A stretch of DNA of 64,000 nucleotides. It comes from Ruminococcus sp. Lineage in GTDB: Bacteria; Bacillota; Clostridia; Oscillospirales; Ruminococcaceae. The stretch lies in contig SVNM01000002.1 in the NCBI GenBank assembly GCA_015066875.1, positions 23,868 through 87,867 on the forward strand, in the 5' to 3' direction. The translations under genes and the position numbers were made by a program. Shown piece after piece: positions 14,928 to 51,145 of this stretch (position 1 is the stretch's first letter; each line of letters starts with the position of its first letter). The notes beneath the pieces were generated by a model. It was not told the origin of the DNA, did no database searches, and saw nothing but the letters and a program-made list of their open reading frames with translations.

Positions 14928-16094
14928 ATGACACAACTTCTTGTAAAACATTTTGTAAAGGACAGCGAAAATACCACCGATATACAGGTTCGTGAACGCT
15001 ACGGCACCCTCAGCAGTATTGTGGGGATTTTCTGCAATATCCTGTTGTTTCTTCTGAAATACATAATGGGAACGCTTTCAAACTCAATTGCTATTGTTTC
15101 CGACGCTTTCAATAACCTTTCAGACAGCGCAAGCTGTATCGTTACCCTTATGGGCTATAAAATCTCCGCAAAGCCCGCCGATAAGGATCACCCCTTCGGT
15201 CACGGACGCATGGAGTATCTTACTTCCCTTATTATTGCTACTGTTATCATTGTTATGGGCGTTGAGCTTATGAAAAGCTCGGTTTCAAAGATAATCAGTC
15301 CCGAAGAGGTTGAATTCCGTGCAGTTGTCCTTATATCGCTGATTTTGTCTGTTGCGGTAAAGCTGTGGCTATCTCGTTTCAACACTGTGCTGGGAAAGAA
15401 AATTAACTCTACGGTTATGCTTGCAACTGCCAAGGACAGCAAAAACGATGTTGTGGCTACGGCAATTACAATCGTTTCCCTTATCTGCTCGTTGTTTACC
15501 GACCTGCCTGTTGACGGAGTTATCGGTATTATAGTCTCACTTTTCGTTCTTAAAGCAGGTATCGAAATCATAAGAGATACCGTTGATGAGCTTCTCGGCA
15601 AGCCTGCTGACGCCGAAATCACCCGTCAGATCTGCAATATAGTCTGCCGTGACAGCCGTATAATCGGTATCCACGACCTTATTATCCATAACTACGGGCC
15701 GGGAAATATGTTCGGAAGCTGTCACGCCGAGATACGAAGCGATGAGGACTTTATCTCCGCTCACGACCTTATCGACCGCATTGAGCACGAAATCCACAAT
15801 AAGCTGAAAATTTCAATGTCTATCCATATGGACCCCATTGAGACCGACAACGCTCAGATAAATCACTGCAAAACCGTTGTTTCGGGTATTCTCAGAAAAA
15901 TCAGTCCTCGGCTCAGCTTCCACGATTTCCGTGCCGTTACAGGCGATACGCATACAAATCTCATCTTTGACGTTGTTATCCCCTTTGATATGGAGCTGAG
16001 CAACAGCGAAATCAAAAATCAAATCGACAACGCTCTGGCAGATGAGCCTGTAAAATACTACACAGTTATCACTTTCGACAGAGAATATACCTGA
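14928..16094 (+). CDS. Cation diffusion facilitator (CDF) transporter
   Basis: 388 aa; IVSDAFNNLSDSASCIVTLMGYKISAKPADKDHPFGHGRMEYLTSL. Confidence 0.93.
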   Translation: MTQLLVKHFVKDSENTTDIQVRERYGTLSSIVGIFCNILLFLLKYIMGTLSNSIAIVSDAFNNLSDSASCIVTLMGYKISAKPADKDHPFGHGRMEYLTSLIIATVIIVMGVELMKSSVSKIISPEEVEFRAVVLISLILSVAVKLWLSRFNTVLGKKINSTVMLATAKDSKNDVVATAITIVSLICSLFTDLPVDGVIGIIVSLFVLKAGIEIIRDTVDELLGKPADAEITRQICNIVCRDSRIIGIHDLIIHNYGPGNMFGSCHAEIRSDEDFISAHDLIDRIEHEIHNKLKISMSIHMDPIETDNAQINHCKTVVSGILRKISPRLSFHDFRAVTGDTHTNLIFDVVIPFDMELSNSEIKNQIDNALADEPVKYYTVITFDREYT

Positions 16095-16457
16095 CAGGAC
16101 GCTTGAGGGTATTGCTCATATGGAAACTTTATACGTATTTATCGGGGGAACCTTTCTGAAGAAAGTTTCCCCCCGAACCCCCTACAAAGACTTTTTAGTC
16201 TAATTTCAGCCCCATAGGGTGCACACAACAACCAAAACAGAAATCCAAGTATTTCTCCGTGTGTACCCTATGGGGCTGAAATTAAAACTTGAAAGTTTTA
16301 GGAAAGGAGTTTGAGGATGACTCCCCGCAGTGCGGGGAGATGTCCGAAGGACAGAGGGGACAGGCTCCCGTTGGGAGACCCTTTTTCAAAAGGGTTTTCC
16401 TCAATATTACATATGAATTTCTGTACGAACAATAACTTTAATGCGTCCTGTTTTTTT
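16094..16457. mobile_element. Palindromic MITE-like element, copy A
   Basis: Outer arms ACAGGACGC (16094-16102) / GCGTCCTGTTTTTTT (16443-16457); core IR TAATTTCAGCCCCATAGGGTGCACAC / GTGTGTACCCTATGGGGCTGAAATTA (16201-16226 / 16259-16284); module CTCCCCGCAGTGCGGGGAG...ATGTCCGAAGGACAGAGGGGACAGG. Confidence 0.8.
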
Positions 16458-24910: not shown

Positions 24911-25279
24911 AAGGACTGCTGTTAAGGGTACTGTCTATACGGAAGTATTATGCGTATTTAGTGGGGGAACCTTTCTGAAGAAAGTTTGTGCCTGACAGGC
25001 ACCCGTCCCCTCTGTCAGCTTCGCTGACATCTCCCCACACTGTGGGGAGTCACCCACACCCCCTACAAAGACTTTTGAGTCTAATTTAAGCCCCATAGGG
25101 TACACACGGAGAAATAATTAAATTTCTTCTTTACTTGGTGTGTGTACCCTATGGGGCTTAAATTAAAACTTGAAAGTTTTAGGAAAGGAGTTTGAGGGAT
25201 AACCCTTTTTCAAAAGGGTTTCCCTCAATAATTCACGTAAATACTTCTATATGGACAGCCCCCTTAGCGGTCCTTTTTT
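24911..25279. mobile_element. Palindromic MITE-like element, copy B
   Basis: Outer arms AAGGACTGCT / AGCGGTCCTTTTTT; TIR-like ends; core IR TAATTTAAGCCCCATAGGGTACACAC / GTGTGTACCCTATGGGGCTTAAATTA; three-hairpin module on the left side. Confidence 0.8.
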
Positions 25280-46576: not shown

Positions 46577-47332
46577 ATGAATAAACTGCTTGACAGCGTT
46601 ATGGACCTTGGCGAGCAGATGCTTATAAACGGCGGTGAGGTTCACAGAGTCGAGGATAGTCTCAAGCGTATTTTCAGCGCATATAACGCAGAACGTACCG
46701 ATGTTTTTATCATTACAAGCAGTATGGTGGTAACCGTTCACGATAAGGACGGCAATTCATATACTCAGACAAGACGTATTACAGATACGGGTACTGATTT
46801 TGAAAAGCTCCACCGTCTTAACGAGCTTTCAAGGAAAATATGCAGTGAAAGGCTTTCTGCTGAGGAAATCAAGACTGAGCTTGATAAAATCCCCTGCTGT
46901 CTGAAATATCCTCTGTGGCTTGAATTTCTCTGCTATGCTCTTATTTCGGGAATTTTCACCTTGTCTGTAGGAGGCGGTATTGCTGAAACTGTGGTATCAT
47001 TTCTGTCGGGTGTGCTTATCAGACTTGTTATTCTTGCCTGTGACAAATCCATAAACAGCAAAATTTTCGCTAAGTTTATCTCTGCATTTTTAGCCTCGGC
47101 TGTAGCTTATATCGCCTTCGGGATTGATCTGGTGCCCGCTGTTGACAGAATTATCATCGGCAATATTATGACTCTTGTTCCCGGTATCGGTATCACCAAT
47201 GCTCTGAGAGATCTTCTTGTGGGCGACAGTATGGCGGGACTTCTTCGTACTATTGAGGCAGTAATTACTGCTCTTGCAATCACTGCGGGATACTTTGCTG
47301 TGGTATTCCTTACAGGAGGTGCTCAGTTATGA
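46577..47332 (+). CDS. Threonine/serine exporter ThrE, N-terminal (DUF1212-type) subunit
   Basis: GEQMLINGGEVHRVEDSLKRI...LVPGIGITNALRDLLVGDSMAGLLR. Confidence 0.92.
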   Translation: MNKLLDSVMDLGEQMLINGGEVHRVEDSLKRIFSAYNAERTDVFIITSSMVVTVHDKDGNSYTQTRRITDTGTDFEKLHRLNELSRKICSERLSAEEIKTELDKIPCCLKYPLWLEFLCYALISGIFTLSVGGGIAETVVSFLSGVLIRLVILACDKSINSKIFAKFISAFLASAVAYIAFGIDLVPAVDRIIIGNIMTLVPGIGITNALRDLLVGDSMAGLLRTIEAVITALAITAGYFAVVFLTGGAQL

Positions 47333-47799
47333 CCTACGCTGAAATTATTAAAATCATCGCAGGACTGAGCGGTTCACTCTGCTTCGGTATCCTGTTCAAT
47401 ATGCACGGAAAAAAGCTTTACGCTTCTGCTTTCGGCGGACTTATGGCTTCGGTTCTTTCACTGATTATGGAAACTCCTGTTGCTGATGAGCCTGTACGAT
47501 ATTTTATGATTTCTGCCATTATCTCACTTTATTCCGAGATTATCGCACGTATCCTCAAGACTCCCGCAACACCTGTTATCACAACATCGCTTATTCCTCT
47601 TATTCCGGGAGGCTCGCTTTACTATACCATGTCCTATGCCTTTGAAAGCGACTTCAATATGTTCGTTGGCAAAGCATCAAGCACCCTTAAGCTCGCCTCT
47701 GCCCTTGCGCTGGGAATTATCCTCGTTACAACTGTTTTCCGCGTTGTAACCGCTAATCAGTGCGTTCAGCGGAAAAGTATACAGCATAATAAAAGCTGA
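47329..47799 (+). CDS. Threonine/serine exporter ThrE_2-type subunit
   Basis: ITTSLIPLIPGGSLYYTMSYAFESD; 4-nt overlap with the preceding gene. Confidence 0.9.
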   Translation: MTYAEIIKIIAGLSGSLCFGILFNMHGKKLYASAFGGLMASVLSLIMETPVADEPVRYFMISAIISLYSEIIARILKTPATPVITTSLIPLIPGGSLYYTMSYAFESDFNMFVGKASSTLKLASALALGIILVTTVFRVVTANQCVQRKSIQHNKS

Positions 47800-48160
47800 C
47801 GCTTAACAGCGATGCTCTAACAGGAGAATTTATACGTTTATTGAGGAAAACCCTTTTGAAAAAGTGTTTTCCTCAAACTCCTTTCCTAAAACTTTCAAGT
47901 TTTAATTTAAGCCCCATAGGGTGCACACATCAAGTAAAGAAGAAATTTAAAAATTTCTCCGTGTGTACCCTATGGGGCTTAAATTAGACTCAAAAGTCTT
48001 TGTAGGGGTGTGGGTGACTCCCCACAGTGTGGGGAGATGTCAGCGAAGCTGACAGAGGGGACGGGTGCCTGTCAGGCATAAACTTTCTTCAGAAAGGTTC
48101 CCCCACTAAATACATATATTCTCCTATTAAGAGTACCAACGTTAACGGTCAGCTTTTTTT
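47791..48160. mobile_element. Palindromic MITE-like element, copy C (inverted relative to D)
   Basis: Outer arms AAAAGCTGAC (47791-47800) / GTCAGCTTTTTTT (48148-48160); core IR TAATTTAAGCCCCATAGGG...CCCTATGGGGCTTAAATTA; module on the right. Confidence 0.8.
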
Positions 48161-48931: not shown

Positions 48932-49237
48932 CCCGGTTATCTTAAGGAGAGTATCCGTATAGAAGTATTATGTATATTTAGTGGGGGAACCTTTCTGAAG
49001 AAAGTTTGCCCCCCACACCCCCTACAAAGACTTTTGAGTCTAATTTAAGCCCCATAGGGTACACACAACAAGCAAAAAAGAAATCCAAGTATTTCTCTGT
49101 GTGTACCCTATGGGGCTTAAATTAAAACTTGAAAGTTTTAGGAAAGGAGTTTGAGGGATAACCCTTTTTCAAAAGGGTTTCCCTCAATAATTCACGTAAA
49201 TAATTCTATATGGATAGTACCCTTAAAGACAACCGGG
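48932..49237. mobile_element. Palindromic MITE-like element, copy D (no module)
   Basis: Outer arms CCCGGTTATCTTAAGG (48932-48947) / CCTTAAAGACAACCGGG (49221-49237); core IR 49041-49066 / 49099-49124. Confidence 0.8.
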
Positions 49238-49246
49238 AATTTTACT

Positions 49247-51145
49247 TTACGCAGTAACCATAACCTTGCTGTTGAACTCTTCGGGAGTCACAAAGGTGGG
49301 AACGATATCGTGAAGTGCCTTTATTGCCAGCTTTTCGTCATTTTTTGACGCTACATCGCGGAGATACGAAAGCTTTTCAGCAAAGGTTGACTCATCAATA
49401 TCAATCTGCTTGCCTATGTAAATGAGCTTGTTGGAGGTCTTTTCAAGTCCCTCCTCATTCATAAGAAGCTCCTCCTTGATTTTCTCACCGGGTCTCAGAC
49501 CTGTAAATTCAATGGGAACATCTTTATAAGGAACCTTTCCGTACATACGGATAAGATTTTCCGCAAGAGCAACAATACGAACAGGCTGTCCCATATCAAG
49601 GACGAAGATCTCACCGCCCTGAGCGATAGCGGCAGCCTCCATAACAAGGCTTACTGCTTCAGGGATTGTCATAAAGTATCTGATGATATCAGGGTGAGTA
49701 ACTGTAACAGGCTTGCCCTGCTCTATCTGACGCTTGAAAAGCGGGATTACCGAGCCGTTTGAGCCAAGAACGTTACCAAATCTTGTTGTTACAAACTCTG
49801 TCTTGCCCTCTTTCTGCTGAGAGAGATACTGTACGATCATTTCACAGCAACGCTTTGAAGCTCCCATAACGTTTGTGGGATTAACAGCCTTATCGGTAGA
49901 AATCATTACAAAACGCTCTACCTCGTGATACTGAGCAAGAGTAGCCACATTAAATGTACCGATGATATTATTCTTGATAGCTTCCATCGGTGAAACCTCC
50001 ATCAGCGGAACGTGCTTATGTGCTGCTGCGTGGAAAACTATCTGAGGCTTATAGCGCTCCATAATCTGATTTATTCTGTAGTAATCGCGTACAGAAGCGA
50101 TAAGCGTCACAAGGTTAAGCTCACCGCTGTACTCCATAAGGAGCTCCTGCTGAATCTCATATGCGTTATTCTCGTAGATATCAACGATAATAACCTGTTC
50201 GGGATTATACTTGGCAATCTGACGTACAAGCTCAGAACCGATAGAACCGCCTCCGCCTGTAACCATACACACCTTACCGTTGATAAAGTTCTTGATATCG
50301 CGGTTATCGAACTTAATAGGCTCACGTCCGAGAAGGTCCTCAACCTTGATATCACGTATCTGATTGATAAGTGTAGGCTCTTCCGCATCGAGAAGAAGGT
50401 TGCTGATAAAGGGGATTATCTTCACTGCCACCTTTGTAGCTGAGCAGAGGTTAAGAATACGCTGACGCTCTTCTTCAAGACAGGAAGGAATTGCGAAAAT
50501 AATCTGGTCGATTTTATATTCCTTTACGTACTTGTCGATTTCCTGTGTTTTTCCCACAACGAGTACGCCTTCGATAGTAGTGCCTATCTTAGCGTCATCG
50601 TCATCAATAATACAGACGGGATTATAGATTGCAGCTTCCTTTTCCTCCTCATAAACCGAGGCACGTGCATTGTGGATTTCCTTAAGCATCATCTGTGCAG
50701 CCTTACCGCCACCGATGAACATTGTACGCTTGCAGTTGCTCATCTCGCCTGTTTTGGTAAGCTTGATGAAGGTCGTCTTGAAAAGATAACGGAAAAGGCA
50801 TATTCCGATTATACTTATTACAGCGTGGATAATACTGTATTTAAGATAGACCTTATCAACCACAACTGCATATATGACACAGCTTAATGACATTCCTATC
50901 AATACGCCATACACACAGGAAAGGTAATCTTTTGACTTGAAATATCTCCAGAGCTTGCTGTATGCTCCGCACACAAACAACGCCAGCAGACAGCATATTG
51001 TACTGATAACAACTGAAATTCCGATAACCTTACGGCTTTCGCCCACCATATATCCGGTCATCATAGAAGAAATTGCGATAATAAACGCATCTGCAATTGC
51101 AAGAGCAATTTTTCTGAATTTAAAGTTCTGTATTATAGCCTTCAT
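49247..51145 (-). CDS. Polysaccharide biosynthesis nucleoside-diphosphate-sugar dehydratase (CapD/FlaA1-type)
   Basis: N-terminal TMs; VCMVTGGGGSIGSELVRQIAKYNPEQVIIVDIYENN; FVMISTDKAVNPTNVMGASKR. Confidence 0.93.
   Translation of the reverse strand: MKAIIQNFKFRKIALAIADAFIIAISSMMTGYMVGESRKVIGISVVISTICCLLALFVCGAYSKLWRYFKSKDYLSCVYGVLIGMSLSCVIYAVVVDKVYLKYSIIHAVISIIGICLFRYLFKTTFIKLTKTGEMSNCKRTMFIGGGKAAQMMLKEIHNARASVYEEEKEAAIYNPVCIIDDDDAKIGTTIEGVLVVGKTQEIDKYVKEYKIDQIIFAIPSCLEEERQRILNLCSATKVAVKIIPFISNLLLDAEEPTLINQIRDIKVEDLLGREPIKFDNRDIKNFINGKVCMVTGGGGSIGSELVRQIAKYNPEQVIIVDIYENNAYEIQQELLMEYSGELNLVTLIASVRDYYRINQIMERYKPQIVFHAAAHKHVPLMEVSPMEAIKNNIIGTFNVATLAQYHEVERFVMISTDKAVNPTNVMGASKRCCEMIVQYLSQQKEGKTEFVTTRFGNVLGSNGSVIPLFKRQIEQGKPVTVTHPDIIRYFMTIPEAVSLVMEAAAIAQGGEIFVLDMGQPVRIVALAENLIRMYGKVPYKDVPIEFTGLRPGEKIKEELLMNEEGLEKTSNKLIYIGKQIDIDESTFAEKLSYLRDVASKNDEKLAIKALHDIVPTFVTPEEFNSKVMVTA

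Follow-up and report, generated by a model that had tools for sequence, protein, structure and literature searches.

A MITE-like palindromic element family associated with intrinsic terminator loops in Ruminococcus

Four element copies in the window

The window, a 64,000 nt stretch of a Ruminococcus metagenome-assembled genome, contains four copies (A to D) of a palindromic non-coding repeat of 280–400 bp, of which the genome carries approximately 65. The copies and their flanking arms are as follows, with element limits taken from an alignment of 41 copies and arms from the sequence itself.

16094..16102, plus strand: copy A, left terminator arm ACAGGACGC, overlapping the stop of ORF 14928-16094
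16104..16440, plus strand: copy A, element, left TA decayed to TG
16443..16457, plus strand: copy A, right arm GCGTCCTGT and T-run
24911..24919, plus strand: copy B, left arm of the host terminator, AAGGACTGC, pairing with 25267-25275
24923..25266, plus strand: copy B, mobile palindromic element of 344 bp, with TA at 24923-24924 and 25265-25266
25082..25165, plus strand: copy B, central 26-bp hairpin, conserved more than any other part; different copies and species have different sequences here, with pairing kept
25267..25279, plus strand: copy B, right arm GCGGTCCTT (25267-25275), followed directly by a T-run (T6)
47791..47800, plus strand: copy C, left arm AAAAGCTGAC, overlapping the stop of ORF 47329-47799
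47804..48144, minus strand: copy C, element in the opposite orientation, between convergent genes
48148..48157, plus strand: copy C, right arm GTCAGC and T-run
48932..48942, minus strand: copy D, arm of a minus-strand terminator, followed by a minus-strand T-run
48943..49225, plus strand: copy D, element without an extra nested module of ~60 bp
49227..49237, minus strand: copy D, partner arm, adjoining the stop of ORF 49247-51145 (minus)

All four copies lay between outer arms that pair within the copy, as the original prediction had claimed, with the T-run outside, and the proposed overlap of copies A and C with a stop codon was confirmed in ORF 14928-16094 and ORF 47329-47799. Copy D forms the terminator of the minus-strand gene 49247-51145. 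The arms had also been said to differ completely between copies; pairing within each copy stood, but complete difference did not, as L017, L060 and L083 have a common GCTGTCG-type stem. The copy B element had a 94 % match elsewhere in the same genome, and RNA folding of this copy gave a minimum-energy structure (−183.3 kcal/mol, z = −15.2) with the outer arms paired. The nested palindromic module (CCCCTCTGTCAGC...GTGGGGAGTCACCC; window 24985-25050 and 16325-16372) was present in some copies only, in either of two inner hairpins. The window also carries a 42-bp tandem repeat at 310-645, with six registers that are 63–94 % alike.

Structure and distribution of the family

Alignment of the 41 copies set the element ends as terminal inverted repeats, TAANGG...CCNTTA, and gave a consensus of AAAAAAA, approximately ten variable bases, the element, approximately ten variable bases and TTTTTTT. 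A 31-base core motif occurred 65 times in the window's genome (reversed control, 0) and the end pattern matched 83 times (reversed control, 8). A near-identical core in approximately 65 copies indicates a recent spread. Many contigs of the window's assembly (G000) start or stop within an element copy, so the true copy number may exceed our count and long elements may be absent from the assembly. Size forms with common ends measured about 48, 112, 280, 343 and 404 bp. The element is short, has terminal inverted repeats and no coding capacity, and is dispersed in many near-identical copies, all of which are features of MITEs. A scan against Rfam returned no match above the gathering threshold. 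Taken together, the most fitting description is a MITE-like family that targets terminator loops and probably duplicates TA.

Matches were found in 41 of 60 sampled genomes of the genus. In the wider order they were limited to the genus, plus two weak single matches in a further genus of its taxonomic family, one of which (L330) is a related element again located between arms, AAACAGGC.../...GCCTGTTT. The family is therefore nearly confined to one genus, in which it extends across dozens of Ruminococcus species. Plasmid records searched with the element gave no match. Three human-gut phage records contain a stretch similar to the nested module, and their match covers that module only. G001 also has such a stretch in another palindromic family of larger size (L206-L212), which likewise adjoins terminator hairpins.

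The central hairpin took several sequences, differing from copy to copy and from one species to another (examples are CCCCATAGGGT, CCCGTTAGGGT, CCCGGACAGGG and CCCCAGATATAGT), but almost all copies retained its pairing. Pairing is therefore maintained, by either selection or palindrome correction. Genomes G001 and G094 are 94.7 % identical at tmk, and in three of the four copies that they share the element body lies in opposite orientations while the flanks are conserved. Body inversions between sister species, with flanking genes not inverted, were seen in the pairs L200/L226, L201/L230 and L203/L224; in L201/L230 both arms had changed together with pairing kept.

Arm pairing, gene context and empty sites

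Pairing across the genome was assessed in the 41 copies for which both flanks were available, by comparing each copy's own flanks with flanks re-paired between copies. Own left and right flanks scored at least 8 in 35 of 41 copies, whilst across 20,000 permutations the mean number of such copies was 3.1 and the highest 12; when the 41 possible partners were ranked, the true one came top for 25 copies and among the leading seven for 37. Counting by eye raised the number of pairing copies to 38, adding the short stems of L003 and L082 as well as L055, whose element end had been misassigned in the scoring. L025, L026 and L069 were the exceptions. A stop codon lay within about 90 nt in 39/41 copies, and 26/41 were situated between convergent genes, an arrangement in which both strands use one terminator. 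The sole copy between divergent starts was L069, one of the three that do not pair. The original prediction had named many copies away from terminators as evidence against it; we found three of 41 in this genome and a few more in relatives (such as L237, L235 and one in L236). The insertion bias toward terminator loops is very strong.

Orthologous sites lacking the element, which the original prediction had proposed as a check, were compared with their occupied counterparts. All six clean empty sites were ordinary intrinsic terminators carrying the stem of the occupied allele. The cleanest, at the L245 locus of G047, reads GGCAGTCC-TTA-GGGACTGCC and is empty in two relatives, G043 (L259, ~96 % identical on both sides) and G069 (L260). 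The occupied allele, GGCAGTCCT-(TAAGGG...CCCTTA)-GGGACTGCC, has the element at the loop's TA and TA at both ends, so that the one TA of the empty allele GGCAGTCCTTAGGGACTGCC has become two, which suggests TA duplication at this exact site. The remaining five came from the genome pair G037/G100, about 83–95 % identical around the sites: AAAAGCCGCTTC-AAAC-GAAGCGGCTTTT (occupied/empty L238/L284), AAAAGCACCC-GCGA-GGGTGCTTTTTT (L241/L267), AAAGGGAGCAGC-CTTG-GCTGCTCCCTTT (L242/L299), GGAGGGACTCTT-TTCAG-AAGAGTCCCTCC (L243/L290; part of the left arm is lost in the occupied allele) and AAGTCGGTGC-TGAGTCT-GCACCGACTT (L240/L302). These alignments show that terminators pre-exist insertion, that stems are kept and that insertion falls in the loop. 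Empty sites were also sought in close relatives of the window's own genome, and none was close enough (tmk identity at most about 72–73 %). Comparison of G001 with G094 yielded shared old copies rather than empty sites, and five candidates inspected from an insertion–deletion scan of 110 loci of the genus were not the element.

The same sites bear on two accounts in which the arms would be a product of insertion. The original prediction had named as an alternative the evolution of a matching terminator by the element itself; more broadly, the element might bring such a terminator with it or acquire one once inserted. Older copies in G001 and G094, in which arms and ends blend into near-perfect stems of 20–33 bp, are compatible with this, as is one shared site where the arms differ between species yet still pair; however, empty sites already have the same stem, which rejects the idea at six sites and leaves it very improbable as a general account. 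It is similarly conceivable that insertion copies one flank as an inverted duplicate, creating palindromic arms anew, and many arms are indeed flush and perfect up to the TA. Both arms are nonetheless present in the empty alleles, refuting this at six sites, and we regard it as extremely improbable. A different explanation dispenses with target choice altogether: the element would insert widely and only insertions into terminator loops would survive selection. Within a terminator, only the loop can receive an insert with stem and T-run left unbroken, and the copies are almost all intergenic, both of which fit. Yet the space between stop codon and terminator, or just past the T-run, should be equally harmless, whereas nearly all copies lie in the loop itself, and the loop bias recurs in several species and a sister genus. 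We consider selection without target choice unlikely. Insertion into existing terminator hairpin loops, the main reading of the original prediction, is supported by the six empty sites.

At the other five sites the occupied and empty loops are not alike and the empty loops lack TA, so that the case for TA duplication comes from the L245 site. Among the 41 copies, 37 had TA at the left end, 35 had it at the right end and 32 had it on both sides, with a variable base just outside. Unoccupied terminators in the same genome resemble the reconstructed targets and have TA in the loop in 21 of 69 cases; when close relatives are compared, most unoccupied terminators retain the same loop (few cases for G037/G100). 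Loop bases may have been altered during or after insertion, or only TA-bearing variants may have been hit; template-switching correction of imperfect palindromes could account for such alteration.

Proposed mechanism and comparison with known systems

We consider it highly likely that this MITE-like element inserts into existing terminator loops, mostly at TA and probably with duplication of the TA. In the proposed model, a non-autonomous DNA transposable element with ends TAANGG...CCNTTA would enter the loop of an existing intrinsic terminator hairpin by DNA transposition, catalysed by a trans-acting transposase that would recognize the hairpin rather than its sequence. The target stem and T-run remain outside the element. 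Being a single long hairpin, the element probably rejoins the two halves of the terminator stem in RNA, and termination is thus probably kept. Mobile DNA in compact genomes must land harmlessly, and the terminator loop would offer a precise answer, with a putative safe-harbour benefit. The copies also constitute many natural tests of the insert size that a terminator hairpin tolerates.

Versions of about 48 and 112 bp, with little beyond the ends, were located inside terminator stems as well (L323, L326), which suggests that the ends are sufficient; given forms of different length with common ends, the most parsimonious mover would be a trans-acting enzyme that works on those ends. The ~48 bp forms consist of the two end repeats only and the 112–114 bp forms add one inner hairpin. 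Very short forms were noted at L323 near 3714 (minus), L321 near 3719 (minus), L326:351-462, L319 and L320, and those of L323, L326 and L320 lie within pairing arms. A search by end pattern in three genomes revealed no autonomous partner with the same ends, only short forms and one 5.9 kb unit (L309:355-6227). The outer two ends of this unit match the element ends and its outer arms pair (AACAGAGACATTC); translated motifs suggest host-like contents, a P-type ATPase-like and an enolase-like gene, and either composite movement or later insertion would explain it. TA duplication is a trait of the pneumococcal repeat RUP, whose mobilization is attributed to an IS630-type enzyme. The first guess for a TA-duplicating enzyme is DDE_3 (IS630/mariner type). 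That domain (PF13358) was absent from ten genomes of the genus in a search whose controls matched, and we did not assign the element to the IS630/Tc1-mariner-derived MITEs. The target may instead be hairpin shape, whatever the stem sequence, read by a non-IS630-type enzyme that recognizes a cruciform or single-stranded DNA, or acts during transcription; we put this forward tentatively, as somewhat short of an even chance. The enzyme that mobilizes the family may itself be a structure-guided integrase.

The literature covered by our search contained no account of this family. Choice of a palindrome is shared with known systems, and loop placement with differing stems is a variant that we did not find described in the literature searched. 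Group IIC introns likewise use intrinsic terminators as a structural target, depending on the stem rather than its sequence (PMC3240598, citing Robart 2007). They insert downstream of the terminator, whereas the element lies in the loop, and they are ribozymes with a reverse transcriptase, in contrast to inverted-repeat DNA ends without an ORF; loop insertion and the lack of an Rfam match argued against identity with them. In Mycoplasma fermentans, IS1630 (IS30 family) has inverted repeats of varied sequence as its target (title of Calcutt 1999, cited in PMC3317919) and duplicates 16–26 bp (PMC3317919). Its long duplication leaves repeats on both sides, whereas the element has one arm on each side with approximately 2 bp probably duplicated, and the empty-site comparisons, which gave one arm per side without a 16–26 bp target duplication, did not fit IS1630-like insertion. 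Palindromic extragenic units provide internal insertion sites for IS1397, ISKpn1, IS621 and other REP-targeting insertion sequences (PMC1525189); the target in those cases is a repeat family of conserved sequence, whilst the element's target stem differs at nearly every site. The pneumococcal RUP, BOX and SPRITE repeats are small, palindromic and non-coding, and SPRITE resembles a terminator (PMC3049150). SPRITE is itself the terminator-like hairpin, whereas the terminator flanking the Ruminococcus element belongs to the host site.
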